IMG/VR virus record: IMGVR_UViG_3300047552_000040
Span: 1-26,712 of that record
Reading direction: 5' to 3' (one strand)
Source of the DNA: a virus
DNA: 26,712 nucleotides
The notes under the pieces were generated by a model, which had not been told where the DNA came from, did not search any database, and worked only from the letters and a program-made list of their open reading frames with translations. Each line of letters starts with the position of its first letter. The first letter of the stretch is position 1. Made by a program: the position numbers and the translations under genes. Positions 8,692 through 26,315 of this stretch are shown here, piece after piece.

Positions 8692-8699
8692 TATTTATA
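8692..8699 (-). promoter_or_regulatory. T4-like late promoter TATAAATA for the fibre block
   Basis: This is a perfect TATAAATA on the minus strand, 50 bases before the ATC start at 8641. A small hairpin (TGCAC/GTGCA, 8667-8680) lies in the leader. It would drive the structural gene and the fibres downstream. It is one of ten related boxes in the window. Confidence 0.6.
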
Positions 8700-8732
8700 C
8701 CATAATGATTATGCATTGTAGCAGCACTATGT

Positions 8733-8738
8733 TATAAT
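8733..8738 (+). promoter_or_regulatory. Possible -10 element (TATAAT) of the HNH endonuclease gene
   Basis: A perfect TATAAT lies five bases before the ATG at 8744. No good -35 hexamer is visible at the usual distance and there is no clear ribosome binding site, so a transcript from here would be nearly leaderless. It may be chance in AT-rich DNA. Confidence 0.25.
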
Positions 8739-8743
8739 CAAGA

Positions 8744-9190
8744 ATGATAAACTTAGACAAATTTTGGTCCAAAATAGATAAATCAGGACCATGTTGGGAA
8801 TGGACTGGACGATTATCCAGGACCGGCTATGGAAATTTTGACGTAGACCAAAAACCAACTTATGTTCACAGAATTTCATTCGAACTTGCTAATGGTCCTA
8901 TAACTAACGGACTGCATGTATTGCATCAATGTGATAATCGAAAATGTGTAAATCCATCACATTTATTTTTAGGCACGCAGCAAGACAATATGAAGGATAT
9001 GAATGCTAAAGGAAGACATAAATTCGGAAGGCACCTAGGGACAAAGAACCCAAGTGCAAGATTGACTGAACAACAAGTATTAGAAATTAGATCTCTTAAA
9101 GAATCTAGACACGCACTGGCAGCAAAATACCAAGTAGCAGTATGCACTATCGACGATATTAAATCGCGCAAAACCTGGAAACATATCTAA
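8744..9190 (+). CDS. HNH homing endonuclease with C-terminal helix-turn-helix (148 aa)
   Basis: The N-terminus contains CWEWTG and GYG, then VHRISFELANGPI, followed by the core VLHQCDNRKCVNPSHLFLGT. H61, C63, C68, N70 and H73 match the HNH_3-type beta-beta-alpha-metal nuclease, and the DNM motif follows. Residues 106-140 (LTEQQVLEIRSL, then HALAAKYQVAVCTIDDIKS) form a helix-turn-helix that would direct DNA binding. The length is typical of free-standing phage HNH genes. It is on the plus strand, opposite to its neighbours, in the gap between the J-like hub and the fibre block, with late-promoter-like boxes facing the other way on both sides. No intron structure is visible around it, so it looks like an intergenic homing insertion. 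Confidence 0.92.
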   Translation: MINLDKFWSKIDKSGPCWEWTGRLSRTGYGNFDVDQKPTYVHRISFELANGPITNGLHVLHQCDNRKCVNPSHLFLGTQQDNMKDMNAKGRHKFGRHLGTKNPSARLTEQQVLEIRSLKESRHALAAKYQVAVCTIDDIKSRKTWKHI

Positions 9191-9191
9191 G

Positions 9192-9209
9192 GGGCAACTG
9201 AGGCTGCCC
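9192..9209 (+). terminator. Weak hairpin just after the HNH gene
   Basis: GGGCA (9192-9196) pairs with TGCCC (9205-9209) around an eight-base loop, one base after the HNH stop region. What follows is AT-rich (AACTTAGTTATTTA) but has no clean T-run, so termination strength is doubtful. Confidence 0.35.
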
Positions 9210-9217
9210 AACTTAGT

Positions 9218-9225
9218 TATTTATG
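9218..9225 (-). promoter_or_regulatory. T4-like late promoter variant CATAAATA
   Basis: CATAAATA is followed by ACTAAGTT, nearly the same context as the box at 12737-12744 (CATAAATA, ACTTAGTT). It lies after the hub gene stop and points through the HNH gene toward the fibre block. Before the HNH insertion it was probably the promoter directly in front of that block. Confidence 0.5.
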
Positions 9226-9257
9226 GTTTCGGAATGTCTAAATTAATAGCATTAGTA

Positions 9258-11945
9258 TTAAAAATCTTTAAACGGGTTCAGGAGAAAGTAATCTACATAT
9301 TCAAGGACTTCAACATGGTTTTTTGTAACCCCGTCAACAGTTAAAGTGTAAGTAATTGTTGGGCTAGTATAGGTAGGTGGTATTGGGATACTGTAAATAT
9401 TTGTACCTTCAGCATAAGTCCAATTAATACCAGACTGTAGAATCTGGTTAATACAGTCGTAACTACCAACAATAGTCAATGGTGTCGACGATATTCCTAT
9501 GGGTGAAACATAACTATATCCAAAAAGACCAGACGTACCAGAAATAGATGTTGGGACCCATTTACCGTCTGACGAAAAATCTGTCCCAATACTAACATAC
9601 CCAGCACTGCAACTAATAGATAAGGAATATTCACCGCTAATTGATGAATCGTTTTTAATCACCATCTTCTTTTTTAAAGAACCACTTGTGGGTATGCCAA
9701 CCAGGTTAGTGGAGACAACACTAGCAGATAATATACCGCTGGCATAAGGACCAGGGTCAACAGGGTATCTTAAAACAATAGTTGTAGATGTTGAACTATG
9801 CATTTGAAATTTTCCATTGTATGAAGACGGTGTTACCCCATACACTCTGTACCATTGTTGTGTGGTAGGCAAAGTATATGCTGAATTTAAAGTATAGGTC
9901 ACTAACCAAAAAGAACCGTTAAACGTTTTTGTCGGAGGTGTGTTGGCTAGAGTATAACCCGTGGTATTAGGTTTTACTGTCCAAGGCTCGTGTTCATTAC
10001 AACTGGTTAAGTATGAACTTGCAGGCTTAGGTGTAATAATTGCACGCCCAGCGGCGAAAAATCCATCAATATCGCAAATTCCAGAATCAGAAGGCCTTGT
10101 AGCCGATCTAGTAACTCCACTCTGGTCAGGTACCCAATTGCTGCCGTCCCACATTAAATAATCGTACAGTACTGGAGCAATACTCAACGTATTCACATCG
10201 TTAAGATCATTAATGATAGAGATATTCCCATTAGTGGTCCCAGGGATAGTAATAGTAACACTATTTCCTGTTTGTGTTATAGAACTAATTCCGTTCCCAG
10301 TGAAGTTAATTTCAGTAGCACCATCAGTAACTATTGTCTCATTATATTTTATACCTAATGTTTGGCTACTGATCGTATTACCAACAATACTAATACCTGT
10401 ACCCGGGACTAAATCCGTACTAATTACATTTCCAACAATACTAATACCTGTACCAGGGACAATATTTGCACCAGTTGTAACATTTATTACATTATCAATG
10501 ATCTCAAGACCACCCCCAGCAGTGTAACCAATGTCCACAATAACATCATTGTTAATTGATGTTACCGTCTTAACTCCTGTACCAGTAAATTCAATATTTG
10601 CCGCAGTAGGTGTTATTGTATAACCGTTGTGTGTGATACCGAGTAACGTTGTACCAGCATTTGCTTGAGTAACTAGATCAACACCTGTTTGATCATTAAA
10701 TAACCCAAACACTTGGTCAAATATAGAACCAATAGATACATTACCCTTAAACAACTGATCAAGATTGTTTAGCAAATAGTTTACTGCCAACGTACTAATC
10801 AATGCACCTGTGGCGTCGTATACGGCAGTATCTTGTCCGATGCCGTCAGTAATTTGTTTTGGTGCATAGTAAACAACACCGCTCGGATCAGAATATTGAC
10901 CAGCAGTAGTTGTGTTGATACCGCGTGACTTAATAAGGAAGTTACCTGTACCCAATGTGCTTACATCCAATGACACAGCAGTACCATATGTAAATGTAGT
11001 ACCATTCGTTGGTTTAACAGTGCCAAGTAATGTATAACTGCGAGTAGAGTCTACATTGTTGCCTGGTGGCACATCTCTTGTATACCAGAATTCCATCGCT
11101 TCAACAATACCTGTTGGCGATGTACTTGTTACCGTAATCTTAGGTAAAGATGCAACCTCTGTCTTAACTACTTCTGGTAGTCCTGGCTTTCCAATCGACC
11201 CAATGCCAATAATACCAGTGCTATTAGACACAACATAGCGATATAAATCAGCAGTGCTATACACATTCTCATCATACTCCAATGCTGTAATGTCCAATTG
11301 AATGGAACCATCATCTGCATCCTTCTCAATTAAGGAAGTGATACGGAATTTCTTAGCAGTAAATCCATAAATGTCACTTGTAATATCAATGACATTACCT
11401 GCTTTAAGCCCTAACTTACTAAAGTCACTTGTAAAGCGGATGATCTTATCAATACGTGATTGCTTTAAGTTTATAGTTCCGAGTAACTGCGCTTGCACTG
11501 GGTCATTAAGAATGTCGAACTGCATGTCAAGACTATTGATAGGCTCATTAATATTGCGTGATCCAATAGGAATCTCAACGTTAACATAATCTAAATTGTC
11601 TTTAAGATCGACGTGGGGGAATTGACACTTAACTTGGTTATATAGTTCATTGATGTCAGTCCCAGATACTGTAATGGGCCCAATGATATTTGCATCAGTA
11701 AAACTTGCTACTGATGTATCAGACTTATTAATTACTACACTCCATTTACCGTCATGTGAATCATACGATATCCAAGACCCACAAGCAGTTGCCATGGACT
11801 CCAGGTTTTGCATAACAGTTTTGTCAGTGCTAACAACTCCATTAAATGCATAGCGGTAAGCAGACGTTACTGTACTACTTGTCGCAGCATTGTAATAAGG
11901 AACACCTGTTGCACTAAAGGTATTCAGTTCACTTAAACTATTCAT
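9258..11945 (-). CDS. J-like tail hub/central fibre, C-terminal half (895 aa)
   Basis: The N-terminal 130 residues (a VMQNLESMATACGSWISYD segment, then DGKWSVVIN) and the following region up to about 240 (NVEIPIGSRNINEP, then KAGNVIDITSDIYGF) match the body of lambda gpJ-like tail-tip proteins. The rest is fibronectin-like (around 270-370) and then a fibrous region with repeated VPGTGISIVGN units (around 505-535) and beta-rich tip domains. It starts inside the stop codon of the preceding gene (TAATG), so the two are translationally coupled. It begins in the middle of what is one continuous domain in other J proteins, so the two products probably assemble together. The expected role is the tail-tip hub and first contact with the host. 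Confidence 0.85.
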   Translation of the reverse strand: MNSLSELNTFSATGVPYYNAATSSTVTSAYRYAFNGVVSTDKTVMQNLESMATACGSWISYDSHDGKWSVVINKSDTSVASFTDANIIGPITVSGTDINELYNQVKCQFPHVDLKDNLDYVNVEIPIGSRNINEPINSLDMQFDILNDPVQAQLLGTINLKQSRIDKIIRFTSDFSKLGLKAGNVIDITSDIYGFTAKKFRITSLIEKDADDGSIQLDITALEYDENVYSTADLYRYVVSNSTGIIGIGSIGKPGLPEVVKTEVASLPKITVTSTSPTGIVEAMEFWYTRDVPPGNNVDSTRSYTLLGTVKPTNGTTFTYGTAVSLDVSTLGTGNFLIKSRGINTTTAGQYSDPSGVVYYAPKQITDGIGQDTAVYDATGALISTLAVNYLLNNLDQLFKGNVSIGSIFDQVFGLFNDQTGVDLVTQANAGTTLLGITHNGYTITPTAANIEFTGTGVKTVTSINNDVIVDIGYTAGGGLEIIDNVINVTTGANIVPGTGISIVGNVISTDLVPGTGISIVGNTISSQTLGIKYNETIVTDGATEINFTGNGISSITQTGNSVTITIPGTTNGNISIINDLNDVNTLSIAPVLYDYLMWDGSNWVPDQSGVTRSATRPSDSGICDIDGFFAAGRAIITPKPASSYLTSCNEHEPWTVKPNTTGYTLANTPPTKTFNGSFWLVTYTLNSAYTLPTTQQWYRVYGVTPSSYNGKFQMHSSTSTTIVLRYPVDPGPYASGILSASVVSTNLVGIPTSGSLKKKMVIKNDSSISGEYSLSISCSAGYVSIGTDFSSDGKWVPTSISGTSGLFGYSYVSPIGISSTPLTIVGSYDCINQILQSGINWTYAEGTNIYSIPIPPTYTSPTITYTLTVDGVTKNHVEVLEYVDYFLLNPFKDF

Positions 11946-12712
11946 TATGTATTGATCTCCGTAGATGGGATGCCAGCACCATAGCGTGTATTGGTCATAT
12001 AGTCATATAAACAATCACCAGGCTTGGTCATTGAGTTTGTAATTTGGAATTTCATATTTGGTATATTAGTAATTCCTTTATCCTTATTATAAGTGACACG
12101 TACTAGTGCAAAGATCAAGTCATTCATCATATATGTGAGGTCCCATCCAGGCATCACAGCATAAGCATTTTGCAAACTATTATTTGTGTATCCACTAGGT
12201 ACGACAGGCGATGTGCTGTCACCGACAAAGCAGTATACTTTAATTAGATCCTGTGCACTATAGTCAATATTACCGTCTCGGTCAGTTGTATAGTCAACAG
12301 TTATACCATCTGCTTTGAACACAATGCGTTGGTCATTCATGTATACATCATTAAATGTAAATGTACTCTGCACACTATCACTTAATTTAATACCAGTCTT
12401 CTCGGCAATAGTTACAGCATAGGTAATAACTTGGTTAGAATTGCTCGCTTGTGCATCTGTAATAATACCACCTAAATGAGTCATACCATATACGATAGGT
12501 ATCTTATGTTCTGGATCTGGATCAACTTGGAGGCGTGCCCCGTAGTCAGGGTTATTAGATTCAGTTGCTGCCGACGATTGATTATCAGCATTTACGCTTG
12601 CTGTCATCCTGTTAACAGCATACGCTAGAATAGCAGTGCGGGCAAGTTGTGACCCGACGCTCTTACCACCAAGCCAAGACCCTACTGCTTGTAATCCACT
12701 TAAGAAACTCAT
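11945..12712 (-). CDS. J-like tail hub, N-terminal half (255 aa)
   Basis: A hydrophobic N-terminal stretch (LARTAILAYAVNRM) is followed by YGARLQVDPDPEHKIPIVYG, the hallmark of the first domain of J-type hubs, then a tail-hub beta domain (STFTFNDVYMNDQRIVF). It ends with CLYDYMTNTRYGAGIPSTEI, then NT and stop. In related hubs the DYxTNTRYG motif lies inside a continuous domain, and here the chain is cut about ten residues after it. AAGG lies nine bases before the ATG and a CATAAATA box 25 bases before. The function is formation of the tail-tip ring with the following gene product. Confidence 0.82.
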   Translation of the reverse strand: MSFLSGLQAVGSWLGGKSVGSQLARTAILAYAVNRMTASVNADNQSSAATESNNPDYGARLQVDPDPEHKIPIVYGMTHLGGIITDAQASNSNQVITYAVTIAEKTGIKLSDSVQSTFTFNDVYMNDQRIVFKADGITVDYTTDRDGNIDYSAQDLIKVYCFVGDSTSPVVPSGYTNNSLQNAYAVMPGWDLTYMMNDLIFALVRVTYNKDKGITNIPNMKFQITNSMTKPGDCLYDYMTNTRYGAGIPSTEINT

Positions 12713-12736
12713 ATCTATAAACCTTATTAACTAAGT

Positions 12737-12744
12737 TATTTATG
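12737..12744 (-). promoter_or_regulatory. T4-like late promoter variant CATAAATA for the hub genes
   Basis: The box overlaps the TAA stop of the preceding gene and lies 25 bases before the ATG at 12712. Its position, strand and surrounding bases match the box at 9218-9225. Confidence 0.55.
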
Positions 12745-13315
12745 GGGCGCCGAAGTTGAAGTTACTGTTACGTAAGGCTACAACTCTATCGAAAGATTTG
12801 TCGGTTGAATATAAAGATTTTTCGTCACGCTCATTTGTTCTACGACCACTAACTTTATTATTCAATACGTCAACAGCACTACTGCATGTCATAAGAATCT
12901 TATTAGATTGTGTGCGAGACATCATATCTATTTCTTCCTCAAGAGAAAAGTTAGATACAATACCTTGAAAGCGTCCTGCTGGGTTACCACTAATTGCTAG
13001 TTGTGTGCCCGTTGCTGCATCAAAGAATACTCGCCATACTTGTATAGGGCTACCTTTCAATTTAATACTTAATACTTCAGCAATGGACGAATTAGGTATC
13101 CCGGATATACTAATACTCATGTTGCCTTGTGTAGCACGAATAGAACTAGTAGTATCTGTAATCGCTAATAATTGACCAAGGGGTTGATATATTTCGCCAT
13201 TAATAGTTTGCGATTGGTAGTAATCAGAGAATCGTAAGACTTGATAATCAGGTACATCGATTCGAACGAACATACCTGTTGCAATTTGTTTGTAAGATGA
13301 TAGGTTGATTGTCAT
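12740..13315 (-). CDS. Minor/distal tail protein (191 aa)
   Basis: The product is a beta-rich protein (FVRIDVPDYQVLRFSDYYQS, then GNMSISISGIP and GSPIQVWRVFFDAATG). A long C-terminal helix-loop (SLEEEIDMMSRTQSN, then CSSAVDVLNNKVSGRRTNERD) resembles the DUF2163/lambda gpL type of distal tail protein. It shares one base with the preceding gene (TAATG), so translation is coupled to the gpM-like protein. It sits between the distal tail protein and the hub, where lambda has gpL and gpK. It is likely part of the tail-tip complex that links tube to hub. The family assignment is by order and general pattern, not by a unique motif. No CPD-type peptidase is present. Confidence 0.7.
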   Translation of the reverse strand: MTINLSSYKQIATGMFVRIDVPDYQVLRFSDYYQSQTINGEIYQPLGQLLAITDTTSSIRATQGNMSISISGIPNSSIAEVLSIKLKGSPIQVWRVFFDAATGTQLAISGNPAGRFQGIVSNFSLEEEIDMMSRTQSNKILMTCSSAVDVLNNKVSGRRTNERDEKSLYSTDKSFDRVVALRNSNFNFGAP

Positions 13316-13695
13316 TATGCTACATACTCAATAAATTCAAATGCACCTGACCAACTAACTTGATTACGTGCAAATACATTCCACTGCGGAAGGTTAGTAC
13401 AAATAACTGTATAGTTGGATGTTGCAGATGTAAACCAGGTACCATATGTACCTGCCGATATAGTAACTGTGCCAGGCGTGTGGCGACCAGCGGCCTCGAT
13501 TGCTTCGATGTAAGTCTTAGCAGTATCCCAGGCCATGCCGTCAGGCAACTTAACAGTGAATCTCTTTTTGTTGTTATTACGAACTACTGTGCGAACCGTA
13601 AAGTCCCTGGCAATAGTTTGTGATGTAATAGGTCGCGAGTCTATACTAATATTCTCGGCGTTGTCAAATACGTATTGGAATGCAGTTGTTGTCAT
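13315..13695 (-). CDS. Minor tail protein, gpM-like (126 aa)
   Basis: It follows the tape measure gene by 16 bases and has AAGGA six bases before the ATG. The product is a small all-beta protein with KRFTVKLPDGMAWDTAKTYI, GTVTISAGTYGTWFTS and a closing WSGAFEFIEYVA. The final F-E-F-I/V-E-Y segment is typical of gpM/distal-tail proteins, which cap the tube at the tip end after the tape measure. Position between tape measure and the gpL-like gene is exactly where gpM lies in lambda. The role is inferred from order and fold pattern. Confidence 0.68.
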   Translation of the reverse strand: MTTTAFQYVFDNAENISIDSRPITSQTIARDFTVRTVVRNNNKKRFTVKLPDGMAWDTAKTYIEAIEAAGRHTPGTVTISAGTYGTWFTSATSNYTVICTNLPQWNVFARNQVSWSGAFEFIEYVA

Positions 13696-13711
13696 TTATA
13701 ATCCTTTAATC

Positions 13712-16222: not shown

Positions 16223-16223
16223 A

Positions 16224-16514
16224 TTATTTCTTTCTCAAAATCTGATCTGTCTTAGTTTTAATAAACTTCTCAGTAGGCTCAACCATACCTTTAGGGGCTT
16301 GACGAGAATAACCCTCATCTAACCTTTGTGCATAATCATAGTTGGCTTGTATTTCATTTCTCACTAACCTTGTACTGCGACGAGCATTGCCAGTTCTTAT
16401 GGGCGTTGCTTTCTTGAATACATCATATGCTTGCTGTGGTAACTTAGCCAACTGTGCTTGCATACGCTTTGTGCTTGCAGTAATATTGTCTTTAACTGTT
16501 AGTGATATTGCCAT
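16224..16514 (-). CDS. HK97 gp10-like tail completion protein (96 aa)
   Basis: The sequence carries the family pattern: AQLAKLPQQAYDVFKKATPI, then RTGNARRSTR, then YDYAQRLDEGYSRQAPKGM, then a basic C-terminal helix. R-T-G-N-A-R and Y-A-x-x-L-D/E-x-G-x-S are the signature of HK97 gp10/lambda gpZ-like proteins, which act at the head-tail joint or at the upper end of the tail. The start at 16514 lies 20 bases after a TTAAATA box and directly before the tape measure. In most siphoviruses this gene lies between connector and tail terminator; here it is displaced past the tail tube and chaperones. Confidence 0.8.
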   Translation of the reverse strand: MAISLTVKDNITASTKRMQAQLAKLPQQAYDVFKKATPIRTGNARRSTRLVRNEIQANYDYAQRLDEGYSRQAPKGMVEPTEKFIKTKTDQILRKK

Positions 16515-16533
16515 ACTTGTTCTACCTGTTATG

Positions 16534-16797
16534 TTATTTAACTGTATTCAGAATGGCTTTAAGTTGGTCTTGTGAAAAGTCTTCTGGCTTCTTCTTAGAC
16601 TCAGGATTTAATCTAGCATTCTCTTGCTCATTCTTGTAGTTGTGCCACTTGGTACTAGTATCTAAGACTTTAAGATCAAAAGTAGTGCAACGTTCAAGTG
16701 CCTCTGATGGGAGACAATTATACCTATGTGCTAGATTATCCAGCGTAATAAGCATCATTGTCTCTGTATCATTGGGATCAAACGCTGAGTCAGTTAC
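16534..16797 (-). CDS. Tail assembly chaperone, T part, reached by -1 frameshift
   Basis: From the A_AAA_AAG site at 16797-16803 the -1 frame runs without stop (VTDSAFDPNDTETMMLITLD, then NLAHRYNCLPSEALERCTTF) to TAA at 16534. This adds 87 residues to the 99-residue G protein, giving a 186-residue fusion. The ATGs at 16755-16758 inside this frame have no good ribosome binding site, so separate translation is unlikely. This is the G/GT arrangement known from lambda and most siphoviruses: the minor fusion binds tube subunits through T while G binds the tape measure. The charged C-terminus (NPESKKKPEDFSQDQL) suits a transient chaperone. Confidence 0.88.
   Translation of the reverse strand, partial: VTDSAFDPNDTETMMLITLDNLAHRYNCLPSEALERCTTFDLKVLDTSTKWHNYKNEQENARLNPESKKKPEDFSQDQLKAILNTVK
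16535..16542 (-). promoter_or_regulatory. Late-promoter-like box GTTAAATA
   Basis: The box overlaps the TAA stop of the GT fusion and lies 20 bases before the gp10-like start at 16514, the same distance as other boxes here. It departs from TATAAATA at two positions, so it is weaker evidence. Confidence 0.4.
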
Positions 16798-17303: not shown

Positions 17304-17311
17304 TATTTATG
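17304..17311 (-). promoter_or_regulatory. T4-like late promoter variant CATAAATA for the chaperone/tape measure block
   Basis: CATAAATA lies 22 bases before the ATG at 17281 and directly after an intrinsic terminator, so it restarts transcription for the tail genes. The terminator-promoter pairing is the best positional support for the motif in the window. Confidence 0.65.
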
Positions 17312-17826: not shown

Positions 17827-17838
17827 TTTAAAATTCCT

Positions 17839-18246: not shown

Positions 18247-18734
18247 TATCTAATTCTCTTAAGTGTAATCTGACCTGCTTGTTGTTCACTAGCAGATACA
18301 GTACCGTCAGCATTCAAGTCATACCAGTCGCCTGAAGTGATAAGTTCCGAGAAAAGTTGTTGAAACTTTTGTTGATAGAAACCTATCTTCGCATGTTCAG
18401 CACTATCCTCTTTCCCAAAATCTGCGATACTAGGAAGGATGTATGTGTGGAATGCGTAATACACACAAAGATCTGTAAAATCATTTTCACGATTTAGGAT
18501 CAATGCTGCATTAACTTCTGGACTAGCACTAACTGAGTTAGAACCAGTGAGGTTAACCCACCAGTCCGTTGCTCTAATTAAAGTTAGAATGCGTTCAGTA
18601 CTACGGATTAGATGTGTTTCAATAACATCATCAGTAAGTCCTTCATTAGCCTCGAATAGACGTTGGTCTGCGCTGAGTACGTCATTGTACTCTGCGAAAC
18701 TTAAGACTGTTGTTCCTTGTTTAATGAAGGCCAT
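18246..18734 (-). CDS. Head-tail connector with an EF-hand-like loop (162 aa)
   Basis: It follows the capsid gene by 12 bases with GGAG before the ATG. It is helical (DDVIETHLIRSTERILTLIR, then FTDLCVYYAFHTYILPSIAD, then HAKIGFYQQKFQQLF), the pattern of gp6/gp15-type connector proteins that form a ring under the portal. Residues 139-150 read DLNADGTVSASE, which fits the twelve-residue EF-hand calcium loop (D1, N3, D5, G6, hydrophobic 8, E12). The loop may bind calcium and order the C-terminus at the connector interface. The connector role is from position and helical pattern; calcium binding is inference. Confidence 0.75.
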   Translation of the reverse strand: MAFIKQGTTVLSFAEYNDVLSADQRLFEANEGLTDDVIETHLIRSTERILTLIRATDWWVNLTGSNSVSASPEVNAALILNRENDFTDLCVYYAFHTYILPSIADFGKEDSAEHAKIGFYQQKFQQLFSELITSGDWYDLNADGTVSASEQQAGQITLKRIR

Positions 18735-18746
18735 ACGTTACTCCGA

Positions 18747-19595
18747 TTAAGCGTCAGCCAAATCTGCAAGAGAGATCAATTGTACGCCATAAGCGTCATA
18801 CAATTCACCAACACCATAAGTTGCAGTAGCAACCAACTCAGTAGCACGTAAAGAAGCATCGCGCTGTGGCTCGATACGGATATCAGACATAACAGCAAGA
18901 CCCAATGCATCACGGTGGAACAAGCCACCCTTGAATACGTCAGCAACGCCATCTAAATTACCTGTTTCATAAACAGGAACACCGGCCAACATACCAACGT
19001 AACCAGTAGCCATTGCTTGGTTCTGGATCAGACCAGCGTTAGGGTTGCTGTAAGTGCCAGTCAATGCCTTCTTCAAGTCATATGCTTGTTCTGGAGACAA
19101 TACGCAAGCCAATGCGTCACCAGGAACACCAATGGAGCGTAGTTTAGCAACTGCCTTGAAGATCGAAGCAGCAGTCAATTCAGTTGCGTTTGTACCAACA
19201 ACTGTGGAGAAGCCAGCAAACAATGCTAACAAGTCCTTGTCCATTTTACGTGCAATTGCTTCACCGAATAAGCGACCAACGTCAGCAACTACATTAGATG
19301 CAGCGGAGTTAGCAACTAAGTCAGTGATAGTTGTCATGATACCTGCTTCACTAACTGTCAACTGTACTGTACCAGTGGAAACAGAAGTGTTTGTAAGGTC
19401 AGTACCTTCAGCAACACCAGCAGCAGTTTGTGCAGTGTAGATAGGTACGTTTACTGTTAAGCCAGTGCCCATTGGGACGCTGTAGTTCTTAACTAGACCA
19501 CGCATGATGGAACGCTCGCTTGCGACGAACATTGCTTCCTGGATGATCGATGGGATTAAGTCATTAAGACTTGTGGTTGTTGTTTCGTTTGCCAT
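18747..19595 (-). CDS. Major capsid protein, HK97 fold (282 aa)
   Basis: The sequence has the HK97-fold layout: N-terminal helix region (LIPSIIQEAMFVASERSIMR), extended loop (GLTVNVPIYTAQTAAGVAEG), spine helix (VVADVGRLFGEAIARKMDKD), the P-domain helix with VLSPEQAYDLKKAL, then MLAGVPVYETGNL and GGLFHRDALGLAVMSDIRIE at the A-domain. It is preceded by a scaffold gene and followed by connectors. AAGGA lies before the start. The N-terminus has no delta-domain extension, so the separate scaffold does that job. It forms the icosahedral shell. Confidence 0.93.
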   Translation of the reverse strand: MANETTTTSLNDLIPSIIQEAMFVASERSIMRGLVKNYSVPMGTGLTVNVPIYTAQTAAGVAEGTDLTNTSVSTGTVQLTVSEAGIMTTITDLVANSAASNVVADVGRLFGEAIARKMDKDLLALFAGFSTVVGTNATELTAASIFKAVAKLRSIGVPGDALACVLSPEQAYDLKKALTGTYSNPNAGLIQNQAMATGYVGMLAGVPVYETGNLDGVADVFKGGLFHRDALGLAVMSDIRIEPQRDASLRATELVATATYGVGELYDAYGVQLISLADLADA

Positions 19596-19617
19596 TATAA
19601 ATTCCTTTAAGTGTTAA

Positions 19618-20289
19618 TTAGGCTATGCCGTTCTCTTTACGATATTTTGCGTAAATCGCTCGGTCTTCAGGTTTACTCATATCCAATTTGAGTACATCAA
19701 CTTTACCAGGAGCGGAAGAGTTAACATTAGATTTAGAATTTGTCGTTGCGGGAGATGCTTGAACAAAATGCGGATTCGAATCCAGGAACTCGCGCACTAA
19801 GTCTTCAACATGTAATGGTGTACCTTTATCGGAATAACGTACAGCACCCTTGTCATCTACTACCTCAACTTCACCTTCTGCACCTAAGCGTACTTTATCT
19901 GCTAACAAGGCCTTCACTTGATTGGGATTCACGCTACGCAATTGAGCAGCAGCATTTAGCAATGGAGTGTTGATCTTGTATTCCTTGATAACTTGATCTC
20001 GCTTTTGGATCTCAGCATCTTTCTTTTGTGCAAGTTCCTGTAGTGTTTTGTCGAATTCACCACGTTTGAGCATTTGCTCTTGGCGGCGTTGTTCTGCTTC
20101 AGTGCGTAATGTACGAAGTTCTTCGGGATCACCAAGGTCTTCATATGGCTTCAATAGGGTTGCTTGTAACTTGCCCTTTTGTTTTGCCAACATTGCGTTA
20201 ACTTCTGCTTGTGTAAACACACGTTCTTTTGCTTCCTGAGTTTGAGAAGTCTCAGTTACTTCACTATCGCCAATATTTGTGTCGGTCAT
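19618..20289 (-). CDS. Capsid scaffolding protein (223 aa)
   Basis: The product is a highly charged helical protein with a long Lys/Glu/Gln-rich middle (RVFTQAEVNAMLAKQKGKLQ, then RTEAEQRRQEQML and KTLQELAQKKDAEIQKRDQV), an alpha/beta region and a C-terminal tail KPEDRAIYAKYRKENGIA. This is the standard layout of phage scaffold proteins, and it lies directly before the capsid gene. The start at 20289 has only a weak GGA element. Its leader of about 60 bases holds a 12-bp hairpin and starts from a TATAAATA box. No protease gene is seen next to it, so scaffold removal may not need one encoded here. Confidence 0.88.
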   Translation of the reverse strand: MTDTNIGDSEVTETSQTQEAKERVFTQAEVNAMLAKQKGKLQATLLKPYEDLGDPEELRTLRTEAEQRRQEQMLKRGEFDKTLQELAQKKDAEIQKRDQVIKEYKINTPLLNAAAQLRSVNPNQVKALLADKVRLGAEGEVEVVDDKGAVRYSDKGTPLHVEDLVREFLDSNPHFVQASPATTNSKSNVNSSAPGKVDVLKLDMSKPEDRAIYAKYRKENGIA

Positions 20290-20322
20290 TGTTTCCGTTT
20301 AGCCTCTTAAAGAGTAGTTTGT

Positions 20323-20350
20323 GACATATACAGACTATTCTATATATGTC
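20323..20350 (-). other. 12-bp hairpin in the scaffold/capsid leader
   Basis: On the minus strand GACATATATAGA pairs with TCTGTATATGTC across the loop ATAG. There are eleven standard pairs and one G-U pair, which would be a C-A mismatch on the other strand, so the fold suits RNA made from the minus strand. There is no T-run, so it is not a terminator. It sits between the TATAAATA box and the scaffold start and could stabilise the mRNA 5' end or bind a regulator. Confidence 0.7.
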
Positions 20351-20356
20351 GTATTT

Positions 20357-20364
20357 TATTTATA
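20357..20364 (-). promoter_or_regulatory. T4-like late promoter TATAAATA for scaffold and capsid
   Basis: This is a perfect TATAAATA just after the portal stop codon, 67 bases before the scaffold start. The hairpin at 20323-20350 would begin about seven bases into the transcript. Confidence 0.65.
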
Positions 20365-20365
20365 C

Positions 20366-21814
20366 TTACGCTACTATAGCGGTACCAGATATAGCAATAC
20401 CCGGATCTACTTGAGGTGTTACTTCCTCGGCAGCCTCTACAGCAGCATTGTATTCAGCAACTTGAGCCGCAGACATGCCTTGTATGTCAGAAATAGTGTA
20501 ATCATCCTCAAGTAACTTAGCAATCTTATTATCAATAAGCGCAAGTACAGCAGGATCAGACGCCGTATCTTTTGCAGTTTTTAAGTTAGTAAACTCTTGT
20601 TGTTTATCTTGCACGTTAAAACTGTCAGGATACTTAATAACACCATCCCATACATATCCCTGGTACATGGCAAAGAGTTGCCATAGTTGTTCTTCAGCAA
20701 GTTCAAGGTTGTCTGCTTTCTCAGATAATTTCGAGTTCAACAACTGAAATTCCGTGGCCATCGCTACACCAGACAGTACCTTAGCAGTTTTAGCACGAAC
20801 AGAGCCAGTATTACTTTGCATATCAATAGCATCAGTACTTTGCTCAATGGACTTATAGATTGAATCAATAGAGCCACCACTATACTCAAGCAAGTATGGC
20901 TTTAAGCCAGGCTCAAGATTCTCAGGCATATTAATAAGTGAGCCAGCGCCATTACCTGCTACTGTGTCAGGTGTCTTAACTAAAGATGGGTGAGAGTCTA
21001 AGCGAATAGTTTGTTCTGCTTCAGAGATCATGTTGTAGATAAACTTTTGACTGTCAGAAATGTCAGTAATATCACTAACGCCCAACCCACGTACTGGACT
21101 GCGGGATGCATAAGCGATAACAGCAGGAATCTTACCTAATCCATTACGCTCAATAATTTCAGAGTGAATCTTCTTTGCTTCAAAGTCTACTTCCCATGTA
21201 GTAACGGTCTCAGGTGTCCACTGTTTAATAGTTTGTACATCACCATTAACTTCCTCTACGTACTTCAACATCTCTAATTGATAATGACCAACAGCATTGC
21301 GCTTCCAATACCAATCCAATACGCTTAGTGGGCTTAAGACGGATGCATAAGGGCGAACACCCATATTAATTTCATCAGCCCGGGTAATAGCGCCTACGTT
21401 AGGCTTGCTTAGTACAACCCAGGAGTGACCAAATACACTTGCCCAGGTTGATACATCCTTCATGAATGAATCTAAACTGCGACCCTCTAAGTCTGCATCT
21501 TCAAGGAATGCTTGTACTTCTGGTAAGTCAGTTAATACACCAAACTCACGGTCTGCTTCATCCTGGAACATAAAACTGTTATACACAGAGATGATGCTCT
21601 TACAGTGATTCTGCAGTGGAGTAGAGCGAATACGTTCAGCGTACTCTGCGTTAGTTTCTAATTGATAGCGAGTTAAGTAGTTACCTTGTTTATAGTCTAC
21701 TCCGCCCATGTATGAATCAAGCAGGAACTTCCAGTTTGCCCTGTTCTCATTATAGATCAAATTTGTACTACCAATGTTTGATAGTTGTGTATCTAGTGTA
21801 TCTGAAGCGCTCAT
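20366..21814 (-). CDS. Portal protein (482 aa)
   Basis: It lies between the large terminase and the scaffold. N-terminal residues (NENRANWKFLLDSYMGGVDY, then LTRYQLETNAEYAERIRSTP) and the middle (VSTWASVFGHSWVVLSKPN, PLSVLDWYWKR, then GLGKIPAVIAY) give the helix-wing pattern of siphovirus portals. The stem helices follow (DISDSQKFIYNMISEAEQTI, then GVAMATEFQLLNSKLSEKAD). Twelve copies would form the DNA channel and nucleate procapsid assembly. AAGGA precedes the start, with a CTAAATA box 22 bases upstream. The C-terminal 60 residues are low-complexity and acidic. The length is normal for the family. Confidence 0.92.
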   Translation of the reverse strand: MSASDTLDTQLSNIGSTNLIYNENRANWKFLLDSYMGGVDYKQGNYLTRYQLETNAEYAERIRSTPLQNHCKSIISVYNSFMFQDEADREFGVLTDLPEVQAFLEDADLEGRSLDSFMKDVSTWASVFGHSWVVLSKPNVGAITRADEINMGVRPYASVLSPLSVLDWYWKRNAVGHYQLEMLKYVEEVNGDVQTIKQWTPETVTTWEVDFEAKKIHSEIIERNGLGKIPAVIAYASRSPVRGLGVSDITDISDSQKFIYNMISEAEQTIRLDSHPSLVKTPDTVAGNGAGSLINMPENLEPGLKPYLLEYSGGSIDSIYKSIEQSTDAIDMQSNTGSVRAKTAKVLSGVAMATEFQLLNSKLSEKADNLELAEEQLWQLFAMYQGYVWDGVIKYPDSFNVQDKQQEFTNLKTAKDTASDPAVLALIDNKIAKLLEDDYTISDIQGMSAAQVAEYNAAVEAAEEVTPQVDPGIAISGTAIVA

Positions 21815-21834
21815 TAGTATTCCTTGTTCATAGT

Positions 21835-23103
21835 TTATTTAGTACCAATAGAATGGCCCCATCTTTGGATAGCATATGGGTCATACTCTACCTTACGTTT
21901 GACGGGCATTAAGTATTCCACACCATAGCCTATAGCATCATTCATGTGGTCAAAGCCCATAGTTTTATCTGGTACTTGCGTACCTTCCTTGTATATTTGT
22001 TTGTCTAGACACTGAATAACATTCTTGCATTTTGGGTCAATCCATAGTCTAACAGTTCCATCACTAGCACACAATGCAGAGTTTACAGCATTAATACGAT
22101 CACGTACAGGAGGGTGAGAAGAACGGTACTTAACATTAAATTTAGCATTTTGTAATATAGATATATCAGTGCGACCACCTGCACTAGTTTTACGTTGTGC
22201 ACCTGCTGGGTCAGGGAATGCAGTTATACGTTTGTCAGGATAGCGATTATATATTTCCTGTACTAACTCATCTGTATTAGAGGAGTGCATAACTATCTCA
22301 TCTATAATGTGATACCCATCCACCCCATCTCTTGTTACTTTGACCGCGATAGCCGCGCTAATAGGGCTAACGTTAAAGTCACACCAAACGTAAATATCTT
22401 GAGGTAACCCATTAGTAGGAATGTTATAAGTTTTGACATTACGCTCTCTGACGAATCCATAATAGATTTGTCCTGCGTATGTTTCAAACGTTGCGAGGTA
22501 TTCTTGCCTGAACGATCTTTCATCTAAGTCCCTTCGTGCTTGCTCAATTTCCCATTCAGGGACATTACCTCCATCAAGTGTGGTATACAGGAAGGATTTC
22601 CATTCTGGATCCTCTCCTGACATACCACGTTGATATAAATCATAGGACCAGTTTTGTGTTCCATCTGGCGTGCCAATAAACAATGCAGAGCCCTGATGGT
22701 CAGACAATGTAGGACGCAATACTAGATTCCAGGTGTCTGGATGTATCATTGCGAACTCATCCATTACGATGCCATGTAAACCCACACCACGTAAACTATC
22801 CGGATTATCGCTACCACGAAGAGAAATTGTACTGTTATTCCTAAGAGTGAGTGTAAGGTCTGTTTCATTTGCTTTTGCTAACCAGCGTACATCCTGCAAC
22901 TTAAACTTGAGCAAGTTCCACATCACTGCTTTAGACTGCCTGTAAGTTGGGCCCACGTAGAACACACGCTTACCAGGGTAACGTGCAATCTTTGCTAACT
23001 CATTCATTGCTAGGAAGGATTTGCCAAAGCGACGTCCCGCAATCAATACACGAAAGCGGGCATCACAGTTTGAGACTGTTTGCTGTGGGTTACTTAGTGG
23101 CAT
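21835..23103 (-). CDS. terL: Terminase large subunit (422 aa)
   Basis: ATPase motifs: Walker A AGRRFGKS (residues 22-29), Walker B plus catalytic Glu IVMDEF (112-117, D115, E116) and coupling motif FIGTP (142-146). Nuclease motifs: D242 in WCDFNVSP, D298 in FPDPAG and D389 near FDHMND (385-389), the RNase H-type metal cluster. All key residues are present, so it should be active as the packaging motor and headful or end-cutting nuclease. It overlaps the upstream 71-aa gene by 14 bases. Read-through from the small terminase is likely, as no promoter box precedes it. Confidence 0.96.
   Translation of the reverse strand: MPLSNPQQTVSNCDARFRVLIAGRRFGKSFLAMNELAKIARYPGKRVFYVGPTYRQSKAVMWNLLKFKLQDVRWLAKANETDLTLTLRNNSTISLRGSDNPDSLRGVGLHGIVMDEFAMIHPDTWNLVLRPTLSDHQGSALFIGTPDGTQNWSYDLYQRGMSGEDPEWKSFLYTTLDGGNVPEWEIEQARRDLDERSFRQEYLATFETYAGQIYYGFVRERNVKTYNIPTNGLPQDIYVWCDFNVSPISAAIAVKVTRDGVDGYHIIDEIVMHSSNTDELVQEIYNRYPDKRITAFPDPAGAQRKTSAGGRTDISILQNAKFNVKYRSSHPPVRDRINAVNSALCASDGTVRLWIDPKCKNVIQCLDKQIYKEGTQVPDKTMGFDHMNDAIGYGVEYLMPVKRKVEYDPYAIQRWGHSIGTK
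21836..21843 (-). promoter_or_regulatory. Late-promoter-like box ACTAAATA for the portal gene
   Basis: The box overlaps the last codons and stop of the large terminase gene and lies 22 bases before the portal start. CTAAATA-type variants also occur at 26267 and 26308. Confidence 0.45.
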
Positions 23104-23305
23104 TAACTATTACTTCGATATTAGTATACTGTGGTTCATCTAGACTGCCCCAATCAGTATCTACTTCTTCCTCGCTTGATACATTAGCCATATGTCCTTC
23201 TGGAATGTTCTTACGGAAGATAGCATCATAGTTACTTGCATATTTTGCATGATCAGTGGGGCGTTGCTTATCACCCTTGCCTGCTTCTTCATATAACTTG
23301 TCCAT
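23090..23305 (-). CDS. Small conserved phage protein with GKGDKxRP motif (71 aa)
   Basis: A strong AAGGAG lies five bases before the ATG, overlapping the end of the small terminase gene. The N-terminal half (EEAGKGDKQRPTDHAKYASN, then YDAIFRK) matches a short motif found in many small phage proteins, where G-K-G-D-K-x-R-P is followed by an aromatic-rich helix. The second half is acidic. Its function is unknown. Its place between the two terminase genes and its overlap with the large subunit suggest a packaging-related or co-regulated role, which is inference only. Confidence 0.75.
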   Translation of the reverse strand: MDKLYEEAGKGDKQRPTDHAKYASNYDAIFRKNIPEGHMANVSSEEEVDTDWGSLDEPQYTNIEVIVNATK

Positions 23306-23307
23306 GT

Positions 23308-23697
23308 TTACTCCTTAATGTCCAATGCCACTTCCCAAGGTAATACCTTATTGTCGTCAGAGTCGACTGGGTTCTCAGACTGACCAAGTATATTCTTACC
23401 TAGCCATATAAGCATTGTTGCATTACCGCTTAATGCTAACTTGATTTGTGCCTGGCGTAATGACTGCTTAAGGTTTTCCCGGCCTTTTATAAGTTCTTCG
23501 CTAAAATTATATCTAAGTGTATTAGCATCAATACCAATCCAATCACATATTTCAGAATCCTTACAGTTTAAGGCTGCTAGTTGATAGACTTCCTTGGGAT
23601 TAACAGGCTTCTTATTACGACCAACAATAATATGTGGTACTGGTATATCAACCAATTTCTTAGGCTTAGGACCAGTTTTTTTAGGTGAGTCAGTCAT
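23308..23697 (-). CDS. terS: Terminase small subunit (129 aa)
   Basis: The basic N-terminus (KKTGPKPKKL) is followed by a helix-turn-helix (VYQLAALNCKDSEICDWIGI, then DANTLRYNF), a helical oligomerisation segment (LIKGRENLKQSLRQAQIKLA) and the typical NATMLIWLGKNILGQSE. This is the arrangement of phage small terminases, which recognise packaging DNA. It lies directly upstream of the 71-aa gene and the large subunit. The only ATG is seven bases after a TATAAATA box and has no ribosome binding site, so the mRNA from that box would be almost leaderless. Confidence 0.88.
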   Translation of the reverse strand: MTDSPKKTGPKPKKLVDIPVPHIIVGRNKKPVNPKEVYQLAALNCKDSEICDWIGIDANTLRYNFSEELIKGRENLKQSLRQAQIKLALSGNATMLIWLGKNILGQSENPVDSDDNKVLPWEVALDIKE

Positions 23698-23703
23698 ATA
23701 TCT

Positions 23704-23711
23704 TATTTATA
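23704..23711 (-). promoter_or_regulatory. T4-like late promoter TATAAATA ahead of the terminase genes
   Basis: A perfect TATAAATA whose TAA is also the stop codon of the 87-aa gene. It lies only seven bases from the small terminase ATG. Confidence 0.55.
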
Positions 23712-23970
23712 TTAGGGGTTTTACCAGTTCATGCTCACCAGAGAGTGCTCGCCAGTAGGCACCACCTTGTACTGCAATCATAGTGATCATCGTTATGTTA
23801 GGGTGATTCTCAGATACTGCATAACTGTTATAAAGCAATTTGTTCATTTGCTTTTGTAGTGGCTTATTATCCTTGAATGTAAGTGACTGTAGTTGTGGAT
23901 ACTTAAGGAAAGAACTTAAGTTAACTATGAGGTAATTGTAATTCGTGGGGTGTTGTTTCTTTTTACTCAT
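23707..23970 (-). CDS. Hypothetical protein (87 aa)
   Basis: The start at 23970 lies in an ATGA overlap with the methyltransferase stop, with GAGG six bases upstream. The product has a basic N-terminus (MSKKKQHPTNYNYL), helical middle segments with LQKQMNKLLYNS, and a C-terminal stretch PNITMITMIAVQGGAYWRAL. I do not recognise it. It belongs to the accessory block that ends at the small terminase. There are no Cys/His metal motifs, and the hydrophobic stretch is too short and polar for a confident membrane segment. Confidence 0.65.
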   Translation of the reverse strand: MSKKKQHPTNYNYLIVNLSSFLKYPQLQSLTFKDNKPLQKQMNKLLYNSYAVSENHPNITMITMIAVQGGAYWRALSGEHELVKPLI

Positions 23971-24548
23971 ACTTGTCCTCTAATGAATACACCATGGAAT
24001 GCATCGCCATAACATCCATTCTCACCATTGTATGTTTTACTTTCAAACTTACTTTGATCTAGATTAGGTTTCATATAACTTAGTAAGTTCTGTATAGTAA
24101 GCATTTGCGGGTGACCTTCATGTGGTGGAATATTAATCCATTCGAATAGTCTAATAACTGGTGCTGCTTTAAATGCATTACGTAGAATTAGTTCTGGATT
24201 TTGTGAGTGCTGCATACAGTTATAGATCCATACTTCATCAAAGTTAGTTTCATCCACTTCTTCTCCAGGGATGACTTTAACATTTATGTTCTTTGTTTTA
24301 TATCTGTCTTTAGTCCATTGTGGGTAGTTGATTGGATCGCAAACTAGTCCTTCTTTTAAGTTGTATGTCTTTAATAGCATTGATGTTGGTCCACCGCCTA
24401 TATCAAGTATTTTCTTATTGTTTGCATCTAGGGAATAGTGATGTCCTGATAAGTACATTCCCCTTGCATATATAAAATGCTTTGCATCTTCACCGAATGT
24501 ATTTGTGCAATCACCCCAGAAGTCTTCTTCGAAATCTAAATCACTCAT
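23967..24548 (-). CDS. Class I SAM-dependent methyltransferase (193 aa)
   Basis: Motif I is KKILDIGGGPTSML (about residues 45-58), and an acidic residue ends the next strand (LVCDPINY, D71), the ribose-binding position. A further strand and helix follow (FDEVWIYNCMQHSQNPELIL), which takes the place of motif IV, and then VIRLFEWINIPPHEGHPQML. This is the layout of a small-molecule or sugar methyltransferase rather than a DNA methylase: there is no DPPY or PCQ motif. I chose ATG 24548, eight bases inside the glycosyltransferase end, because an AAGGA precedes it; a longer frame from 24644 would overlap that gene by over 100 bases. It probably acts with the glycosyltransferase to decorate a glycan. 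Confidence 0.8.
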   Translation of the reverse strand: MSDLDFEEDFWGDCTNTFGEDAKHFIYARGMYLSGHHYSLDANNKKILDIGGGPTSMLLKTYNLKEGLVCDPINYPQWTKDRYKTKNINVKVIPGEEVDETNFDEVWIYNCMQHSQNPELILRNAFKAAPVIRLFEWINIPPHEGHPQMLTIQNLLSYMKPNLDQSKFESKTYNGENGCYGDAFHGVFIRGQV

Positions 24549-25686
24549 AAGTGTACCATCCTTGTTTTGTATAGACATTGAGAACGTCCTGGAAATATCT
24601 TTCATATTGTGGTGCAACATTACCCAATACAAACTTATATCCATGGTCTCTGCAATTAACTGGTTTTAGGTTTGATACATTATGACATGCATCAACATAG
24701 TCCTTGAATGTGCGACATCTATAACCCGTAACTCCATCGATATTAAGTTCAGCGAATGCTGCATAGTCAGGAGTAATTGTTGGTGTACCGGATAGCCAGG
24801 ATTCTACTTGTACTCCCGCGAATGGTTCGCCATACTTGGATGCGATGAAGAGGGCTTGTGCATTGCTCATAAGTTTCATTCTTAATTGCGGGTCAGCATA
24901 TCCTACTTCCGTGACATGTTTCATGTCTGGGTGGGACATGTCATATCCCATTTCTTTGAGTGTACCTTGGCCCGCTACAACTAATCTCTTATTTGCTTTT
25001 CTCGTTGCATCAATGGCAATGTCCACACCCTTACCTGTGTATACTCTTCCTAGATAGAGAATGTAATCTTGTTTGGCAATTTGATACTTAAAATCTTCTG
25101 GGTCAAAGTAGTTGGGGATGACAACGTGGTAGTTGTCCTGGGTACATTGGTTGATACTGTTAAGTCCGCCGATTGCATTGCGTATTGCATGTGATTCAAA
25201 TACACGCCATCTTGCGAATGCGCCTCCATAACCAATACCAGATTCAACAAATATTAGTTGCCTGTGTGAATCTCCGCCAAAGTGATCATATATTGCTTTG
25301 TGTCCATAACCCCATGTCATGCAAACAATGATATGCTCATTAGATTGAGACATTAATTCATTCAATACTTTAATACTATTTTCAGCAAATACTTTATGAG
25401 CATAATCATCTGCTTTGAAATACTTCGCAAAGCCATGTACTTTCCAGGCTTTGCTGTCTACGTAGTCATCACCATATGCTTGTCTATGTGCACTATTATT
25501 AATTACTGTATGATGATGAACATCATGTGCATTGTGTATTTTTGAATCTTCGTGGCCTAAGTGATGTATTTCATGCCCTCTGCCAGACATCATTTTAATC
25601 ATCTTAAGTGCCTTTGACTGAAAGGCACATGCACTCCACTCAGGATGCGTGATAGTGTGAGGGACTCCTAAAATTGCTATTCTCAT
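24541..25686 (-). CDS. Glycosyltransferase, GT4-type GT-B fold (381 aa)
   Basis: The N-terminal Rossmann half starts MRIAILGVPHTITHPEWSAC and is His-rich (about 38-60). The C-terminal half carries the donor-binding motifs: PNYFDPEDF (191-199), YLGRVYTGKGVD (211-222, with R214 and K219), RLVVAGQG (234-241), and the E-x7-E motif E287/E295 in EPFAGVQVESWLSGTP. These are all expected for a working retaining GT4 enzyme. It starts in the stop of the HNH-like gene (ATGA) and overlaps the methyltransferase by eight bases, so the three are coupled. The acceptor is unknown: candidates are virion fibres (the collagen-like shaft), hypermodified DNA or host surface glycans. Confidence 0.9.
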   Translation of the reverse strand: MRIAILGVPHTITHPEWSACAFQSKALKMIKMMSGRGHEIHHLGHEDSKIHNAHDVHHHTVINNSAHRQAYGDDYVDSKAWKVHGFAKYFKADDYAHKVFAENSIKVLNELMSQSNEHIIVCMTWGYGHKAIYDHFGGDSHRQLIFVESGIGYGGAFARWRVFESHAIRNAIGGLNSINQCTQDNYHVVIPNYFDPEDFKYQIAKQDYILYLGRVYTGKGVDIAIDATRKANKRLVVAGQGTLKEMGYDMSHPDMKHVTEVGYADPQLRMKLMSNAQALFIASKYGEPFAGVQVESWLSGTPTITPDYAAFAELNIDGVTGYRCRTFKDYVDACHNVSNLKPVNCRDHGYKFVLGNVAPQYERYFQDVLNVYTKQGWYTYE

Positions 25687-26246
25687 AATCTAATCCAATC
25701 TGTTAATCTATCTAAATTTCTTTGTATCGTCGAGGTGTGCACTTTATAGAACTCTGCTGCTTTCTTGATAGTTTCAAATTTGCCATCAGGAGTTTGTATA
25801 GCACATTTGCCACCAGTTTTATTATCAGTGAAATAATACTCTAATGGTTTGGAGATCATTCTGTTACGAATAGTAACGTCCGTGCAACCATGACTTTTTG
25901 CAGCATCACCGATAAATTTAAAATCACCATTTGGTGTGTGCAAACTACGTGCGCTATGTCTATTAGCGCCTCTTTTTGTGAAGGGATTTATTGCTCGAGC
26001 ATCCTTTGAATTTTGACCTCTTGTCGCGCAATATATATTTCCTAATTGATATGGACCTGTATCATTAATGCGACACATGCATAATACATTAGGGTCAGTT
26101 CTAGATTGAGGTGGTTGAGTGTTTTTATCTATTCCATTAGATAACCACCAATCATACCATTCGTCGAATGTTAATAAGAAGCCAATGCCGCGAGTTTTCG
26201 CTTTGGCTTTATGAACTCTATATCTTTGTAGTGCGTTGGGTACCAT
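25683..26246 (-). CDS. HNH-type homing endonuclease with two NUMOD1/IENR1-like repeats (187 aa)
   Basis: The N-terminal part (RYRVHKAKAKTRGIGFLLTF, then DEWYDWWL) leads into CMCRINDTGPYQLGNIYCAT and RGQNSKDA, the pattern of phage HNH-type nucleases in which GPY-x-x-x-N-x and Q-N-S-x-x close the nuclease domain. Two tandem repeats follow: HTPNGDFKFIGDAAKSHGCT and QTPDGKFETIKKAAEFYKVH, each continuing into T-I-R/Q-R-N; these are IENR1/NUMOD1 DNA-binding units. A TTG at 26276 would add ten residues, but it lies upstream of a CTAAATA box at 26267-26274, so ATG 26246 (or 26252) is preferred. Unlike the other two endonuclease genes it is on the strand of the late genes and is translationally coupled to the glycosyltransferase. 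Confidence 0.82.
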   Translation of the reverse strand: MVPNALQRYRVHKAKAKTRGIGFLLTFDEWYDWWLSNGIDKNTQPPQSRTDPNVLCMCRINDTGPYQLGNIYCATRGQNSKDARAINPFTKRGANRHSARSLHTPNGDFKFIGDAAKSHGCTDVTIRNRMISKPLEYYFTDNKTGGKCAIQTPDGKFETIKKAAEFYKVHTSTIQRNLDRLTDWIRL

Positions 26247-26266
26247 GTACATCTCTATATCACTAG

Positions 26267-26274
26267 TATTTAGC
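26267..26274 (-). promoter_or_regulatory. Late-promoter-like box GCTAAATA
   Basis: It lies 20 bases before the preferred ATG at 26246 and shares CTAAATACT with the second box at 26308-26315, giving tandem boxes 41 bases apart ahead of the accessory block. Confidence 0.45.
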
Positions 26275-26307
26275 AATTATAGAGTAAGCACAATTATATC
26301 TATAGAG

Positions 26308-26315
26308 TATTTAGT
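26308..26315 (-). promoter_or_regulatory. Late-promoter-like box ACTAAATA (upstream of the tandem pair)
   Basis: It starts two bases after the stop of the membrane protein gene. The following CTCTATAGATATAATTG is similar to the sequence around the second box, suggesting a duplicated promoter region. A perfect TATAAT at 26278-26283 lies between them, but it has no -35 hexamer. Confidence 0.4.

Follow-up and report, generated by a model that had tools for sequence, protein, structure and literature searches.

Late transcription in bacteriophage T4 starts at promoters of the sequence TATAAATA, which are served by gp55, gp33 and the gp45 clamp. The T4 late box is numbered from −13, lies about one helical turn upstream of the start and is not accompanied by a −35 element (PMC2988020), and gp55 contacts the promoter at −12, −9 and −8 (PMC7892883). 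The late promoter of the cyanophage S-PM2 is NATAAATA, as compared with TATAAATA in T4 (PMC2984593). Transcription of this type has been reviewed as unique to T4-related phages, or as significantly different outside them (PMC2988020). Here we describe a series of such boxes on the minus strand of an unrelated siphovirus-type genome, the linear and incomplete IMG/VR virus record IMGVR_UViG_3300047552_000040, whose full 26,712 bases are referred to as the window. The boxes probably serve as late promoters in a clade of small siphovirus-type phages, the relatives of phage DSL-LC06, where they would be read by a specificity factor that needs only a −10-type element.

The boxes of this clade and those of T4 are alike in the TAAATA core, the A at −12 and the lack of a −35 element, and a start about 6 nucleotides (nt) downstream is predicted for the clade as well; in both, boxes stand ahead of virion genes, some of them just downstream of apparent terminators, and early genes have separate sigma70 promoters. 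The two differ in that the clade has no preference for T at −13, consists of ~30 kb siphovirus-type phages and has yielded no homologue of gp55 or gp45. The late promoters of cyanomyoviruses (S-PM2 and Syn9, with S-CAM7 measured) likewise have the form NATAAATA, with A or C before TAAATA and a similar sense/antisense bias, but these phages are T4-like and large (216 kb for S-CAM7) and encode homologues of gp55, gp33 and gp45.

The minus strand of the window carries a siphovirus-type module of small and large terminase, portal, scaffold and HK97-type capsid genes, which continues with neck and tail genes, the tape measure, a hub and a collagen-like fibre. Its closest annotated relatives are DSL-LC06, a circular metagenome-assembled genome of 29.8 kb, and four ~32 kb Pelagibacter phages. 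The window belongs to the DSL-LC06 clade ('Nanhuiviridae', PMC10611076), with which it has terminase, portal, scaffold, capsid, neck and tape measure genes in common; the large terminases (TerL) of the two are ~50% identical, and DSL-LC06 has boxes at 7 junctions, whereas it differs from the window in its glycan-modifying gene content. A text search of the paper describing DSL-LC06 (PMC10611076) found neither promoters nor sigma factors mentioned. The Pelagibacter phages HTVC026P, 111P, 112P and 202P have related capsid, terminase and portal genes and a similar genome size, but lack the strand bias of the box, and their annotated early genes include helix-turn-helix regulators, DnaD-type genes and nuclease genes. 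The window does not belong to the T4 superfamily, which has T4-type structural genes and large genomes: its portal, scaffold, capsid and tape measure are of siphovirus type, and the closed genomes of its relatives are ~29–33 kb. Integrated relatives sought in bacterial genomes were remote ones only, at most 43% identical.

Boxes in the Window

The initial annotation had reported ten minus-strand boxes at gene junctions, and this observation is confirmed. TATAAATA at 8692, 20357 and 23704 and CATAAATA at 9218, 12737 and 17304 are all on the minus strand exactly where it had placed them, and 10 of the 12 minus-strand TAAATA sites lie at junctions, those at 4358 and 84 being internal; on the plus strand, a single site falls at a junction. 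The predicted late-promoter boxes are as follows.

26308-26313, minus strand: box ACTAAATA, after a holin-like partial open reading frame and ahead of the HNH gene
26267-26272, minus strand: second box, GCTAAATA, 20 nt ahead of the likely HNH-gene ATG (26246)
23704-23709, minus strand: box TATAAATA, 6 nt ahead of the small-terminase ATG; leaderless mRNA predicted
21836-21841, minus strand: box ACTAAATA, ahead of the portal gene, overlapping the large-terminase stop codon
20357-20362, minus strand: box TATAAATA, ahead of the scaffold-capsid operon, at a position conserved in the clade
17304-17309, minus strand: box CATAAATA, ahead of the 17090-17281 gene (tail/chaperone block), with a terminator-like hairpin and U-tract just upstream
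16535-16540, minus strand: box GTTAAATA, preceding the 16224-16514 gene, a tail assembly chaperone to judge by its position
12737-12742, minus strand: box CATAAATA, 24 nt ahead of the hub gene 11945-12712, overlapping the upstream stop
9218-9223, minus strand: box CATAAATA, after the 9258-11945 gene and before a plus-strand HNH open reading frame and the fibre block
8692-8697, minus strand: box TATAAATA, ahead of the fibre block (8141-8485, 4754-8131)

The short distance between box and gene that had been claimed holds for most of them (6 to 67 nt); the boxes at 9218 and 8692 lie 732 and 206 nt from annotated starts. Counting gave a divided answer on enrichment, which is seen in junction position and strand and not in the whole-window totals (TAAATA, 19 against 32 expected; TATAAATA, 3 against 2.5 expected), because TAAATA is under-represented inside genes. 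At junctions it is the commonest hexamer of the window, occurring 10 times where composition predicts 1.8 (Poisson P 2e-5). When genes are called automatically, 9 sites fall at junctions against 2.9 in dinucleotide-shuffled junctions, and none of 1000 shuffles reaches 9. Some hexamer, whichever it may be, reaches 9 in 1.3% of the shuffled-junction sets, so that the window by itself gives a P of ~0.01 after correction for all hexamers. Several boxes overlap a TAA stop. The relatives described below make the signal overwhelming.

Conservation of the Box in Related Phages

A capsid alignment drew 80 IMG/VR loci, in which the 110 nt ahead of the scaffold gene served as the test region. Nineteen loci, the window and DSL-LC06 among them, have a GC (guanine plus cytosine) fraction of 0.38 or higher; TAAATA is found there in 18 of these 19 and its reverse complement in 1. 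The lower-GC groups have the box in 6 of 21 and 7 of 32 loci. Among out-of-sample loci fetched afterwards, 21 of 23 carry the box (reverse complement, 1/23), both misses being members with a GC of 0.35. The capsid tree places the window inside a clade that has strong support and comprises 34 rows, 32 of them box-bearing, and a second group of 8 rows has the box in all. Presence of the box is far more clustered on this tree than expected by chance, requiring 8 changes against 31.7 in shuffles.

In the clade without the window, junction TAAATA occurs 96 times in sense and 11 times in antisense orientation, the strongest strand bias of all hexamers; its single-base variants are much weaker in this respect, and the other A4T2 anagrams are weaker too. 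Loci selected by terminase, with a GC of at least 0.38 and partly overlapping the earlier set, give 73 sense and 7 antisense sites. As positive controls, T4 gives 16/5 and S-CAM7 16/1. The bias is missing in the pelagiphages (21/20, GC 0.31) and in a Vibrio siphovirus (3/1), and low GC as a compositional cause was ruled out by the pelagiphages. On the sense strand the boxes are placed ahead of virion genes, as T4-type late promoters are. Taken together, these data strongly support a promoter regulon. Two low-GC relatives (G052 and G053, L305-L308; GC 0.32-0.33) also show sense-biased junction TAAATA, 9/2 and 11/1, and the regulon may therefore reach beyond the higher-GC clade.

Promoter Anatomy and the Predicted Start

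Alignment of first 45 and then 93 sites reveals a single conserved position near the core, the base immediately before TAAATA, which is A in 59, C in 21, G in 8 and T in 5; the corresponding counts in S-CAM7 are A 9, C 6 and G 1. No −35 information is present in either alignment, and the T that T4 prefers one base further upstream is not preferred in the clade, so that the conserved core is NATAAATA only. TTTTT, a T-run typical of terminators, occurs within 40 nt upstream of 19 of 100 boxes, as compared with 162 of 2580 junction positions (P 2e-5).

Box-to-ATG distances are bimodal, with 13 boxes at 3-8 nt, two at 9-14 nt and the remainder mostly at 16 nt or more. A Shine-Dalgarno sequence is found in none of the eight cases in which the ATG follows the box by 5-6 nt, as compared with 67 of 76 leaders of at least 15 nt (Fisher P 6e-7). 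This is the pattern that leaderless mRNAs starting on the ATG would be expected to leave, and the window box at 23704 is one of these. A ribosome-binding role for the boxes was ruled out by their spacing from the start codon, which varies from 3 to 107 nt.

The scaffold leaders are of two kinds, either short (mostly 25-38 nt, with no notable structure) or long (at least 40 nt). All 18 long leaders have a stem-loop that starts no more than a few nt from the predicted 5' end, with a mean z of −2.0 and a z of −4.2 for that of the window (mononucleotide shuffles):

20323-20350, minus strand: 5'-terminal hairpin gacatatatagaatagtctgtatatgtc, beginning ~1 nt after the predicted +1; z −4.2

A hairpin directly after the predicted start is also seen in the scaffold leaders of L002, L012, L024, L124, L125 and L127. 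The hairpin behaves as a modular insert that may stabilise the late mRNA. The leaderless ATGs and the 5'-terminal hairpins, as independent features, would place the start ~6 nt downstream of the box, which would be the geometry of T4 late promoters.

At the 8692 box, an AAGGAG resembling a Shine-Dalgarno sequence lies downstream and precedes an extended frame of the first fibre-block gene, a frame with no standard start codon. This gene (8141-8660, minus strand) encodes 114 residues from its listed GTG start, as compared with ~175 in its relatives.

Early Promoters

Matches to the sigma70 promoter at all 12 of 12 positions occur in the early regions of DSL-LC06 (at 1293), G002 (at 9010) and G045 (at 21331), and matches at 11 of 12 in those of G003, G031, G038 and G048. 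The junctions of these phages also show a separate enrichment of TATAAT. TAAATA as a −10 element for host sigma70 was rejected, given that no −35 accompanies it, that its single-base variants are not comparably enriched and that TATAAT is enriched in its own right. In addition, a few of the boxes stand ahead of early-region genes. These data suggest a two-stage plan in which host sigma70 would serve the early genes and NATAAATA the late ones.

Search for the Reader of the Boxes

The initial annotation had named a gp55-like sigma factor and a sliding clamp among the genes to look for in the rest of the genome, and neither was found in the records tested. The gp55 profile phrog_234 recognises gp55 of T4 (E 3e-69) and of S-CAM7 (E 5e-67). 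The relatives searched with it include G031, G045, G046 and G048, in which identical ends of 79-127 bp mark closed genomes of 31-33 kb, as well as G001, whose ends fall in the same gene, and the circular DSL-LC06; the closed genomes span 29.8-32.8 kb. A lone weak match (E 0.002) has six stops inside and comes from a pelagiphage without boxes.

Several results weigh against the proposal that the boxes are late promoters which, after an early stage driven by sigma70, are read by a −10-only factor in the way of gp55. The profile has no match in the window and nothing credible in 66 related records, the closed genomes among them, and a 44-sequence gp55 profile found nothing either by hmmsearch in its most sensitive mode or by profile-profile comparison with hhalign. 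The related records tested lack sigma-70 region 2, and 11 box-bearing genomes lack the C-terminal domain of the gp45 clamp (PF09116). Strict sigma70 promoters (11 or 12 of 12) were not found in the window, and not all near-complete members have them. The box-bearing genomes have no early gene family common to all of them, which argues against a conserved phage-encoded factor. Finally, AlphaFold models of two early candidates (predicted local distance difference test scores of 81 and 74) have no significant match in the PDB and are unlike each other.

What stands of the hybrid system first proposed is its cis side, T4-type late-promoter boxes in a siphovirus-type morphogenesis module, as judged by sequence, strand, lack of a −35, inferred start and conservation; the T4 trans machinery is not supported. 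Judged from its DNA, this is a T4-type late regulon for which no T4 machinery was found: it would work like T4 late transcription at the level of the promoter, with neither gp55 nor gp45 recognisable. Complete genomes were examined and held no recognisable T4-type reader, so something not recognised in these genomes must read the boxes, the candidates being a diverged phage factor, a host sigma factor and the gp55 of a co-infecting T4-like phage.

What comes closest to a shared early gene is a cassette that many members carry ahead of the small terminase and that consists, in this order, of an HNH-like protein, a protein of 114-163 residues and a small coiled protein starting with (D/W)DP.

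Syntenic cassette sites in relatives: L091:1036-1512(-), L293:7566-8006(-), L301:6030-6437, L300:6969-7349, L295:2806-3150, L215:491-982

The middle genes belong to unrelated families, the one next to the HNH gene falling into two, and the window, an incomplete record, has no middle gene. An LF-containing C-terminal peptide (e.g., FHNLFEVQE, FRNQLFDWGK) ends 11 of 13 middle proteins as compared with 2.5% of all proteins examined, members of the same family not being independent. It may be a sliding-clamp-binding tail, which it resembles; T4 gp55 ends in SLDFLYEAND. A few other proteins of the group end in this way, among them an adenine-type DNA methyltransferase (G045 24318-25445, ending NNFDALFE). 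A conserved early gene as the sigma factor was dropped as a candidate: the commonest early gene is HNH-like, its neighbour is split between two families, and the models of both lack significant PDB matches. The early region of G001 also encodes a 403-residue protein (L089:1995-3206) with DNA polymerase A-like motifs by eye (CADVDASAL, CHDAVYT), for which the databases hold no relative besides itself.

Which Factor Reads the Boxes

The option that we consider most likely, if still tentatively, is a strongly diverged factor from the variable early region of the phage; after it we would place a host sigma factor and then the gp55 of a co-infecting T4-like phage. With a −10-only factor of whatever origin, infection would proceed in two stages. 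Host RNA polymerase would transcribe the early region from ordinary sigma70 promoters, and later the polymerase would carry a specificity factor reading only a −10-type element, as T4 gp55 does. Late initiation would then take place at NATAAATA boxes (−13 to −6), with no −35, ahead of the terminase, portal, scaffold/capsid, tail and fibre genes, and transcripts would begin ~6 nt after the box, some right on the ATG as leaderless mRNAs and some with a 5'-terminal hairpin.

Recognition of TAAATA by a host-encoded sigma factor, or by host sigma70 with a phage activator, is unlikely but deserves consideration. It would fit a cis element that is conserved where no conserved phage factor was found, and region 2 of the sigma70 family does read −10-like elements. 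However, TAAATA is distinct from the TATAAT that is itself enriched at junctions of these phages, and the pelagiphage relatives do not use it. We also know of no host sigma factor with a −10-only specificity for TAAATA.

We regard as less probable again that gp55, with gp33 and gp45, of a co-infecting T4-like phage reads the boxes, late genes being expressed only or best in double infection. Virophages use giant-virus promoters in a comparable manner. The box motif and its −1 preference fit the cyanophage version, no sigma factor or clamp of their own was found in these phages, closed genomes included, and the 27 non-structural proteins of DSL-LC06 that were scanned include no recognisable replication or transcription gene. 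Accessory genes of the window (23967-24644, 24541-25686 and the HNH gene) also match those of T4-like phages. Yet several members have near-consensus sigma70 promoters in their early regions, which implies autonomous infection and argues against obligate dependence, and since the boxes are kept over a broad clade an obligate association would be required throughout. The gene sharing may merely mirror common hosts and database bias, and G001 encodes the protein with polymerase A-like motifs. By analogy with virophages, the small phages might be transcriptional parasites of T4-like phages that build their own virion and leave late promoter recognition to the gp55 of the co-infecting phage, an idea that we hold to be rather improbable.

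An artefact of AT-rich intergenic DNA, TAA stops or ribosome-binding context, to which the low raw counts, the overlap with TAA stops and the modest corrected P of the window alone would point, is very hard to reconcile with the strand bias of the clade, the weaker anagrams, the out-of-sample loci, the absence of bias in AT-richer pelagiphages, the additional conservation of the −1 base and the geometry of the predicted start.

Gene Links to T4-like Phages

Annotated genes of the window are listed here.

25683-26246, minus strand: HNH-like protein, phrog_16521; listed database matches all from T4-like phages
23308-23697, minus strand: small terminase subunit, phrog_309-like; kept across the clade
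20366-21814, minus strand: portal protein, phrog_145
18747-20289, minus strand: scaffold (19618-20289) and major capsid (18747-19595)

All 45 phage records matching the gene at 23967-24644 are Synechococcus phages, as are 51 of the 52 matching that at 24541-25686; the listed ones of this second set are T4-like cyanophages. The region 23967-25686 is a pair of glycosyltransferase and phrog_3603 genes otherwise found in T4-like Synechococcus phages (ACG-2014f, S-CAM7); in ACG-2014f the two are neighbours as well, but in the opposite order. Two plus-strand open reading frames face the late operon, one at 29-556 matching homing-endonuclease families and an HNH-like one at 8744-9190 with relatives in DSL-LC06. 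The source paper of DSL-LC06 states that replication genes of primase, helicase and polymerase type are present in all its genomes (PMC10611076), which contrasts with the lack of any recognised among the scanned non-structural proteins of DSL-LC06 (L002, OR003941).

Conclusions

A conserved NATAAATA regulon of predicted T4 geometry, carried by a clade of ~30 kb phages that is unrelated to T4 and in which no gp55 or gp45 was found, leaves three options for its reader. It may be an unrecognised class of minimal sigma factor, a host sigma factor with this specificity, or a factor borrowed from T4-like phages. In each case the boxes would provide a rule for annotation, by which late promoters could be mapped in a group of uncultured phages.

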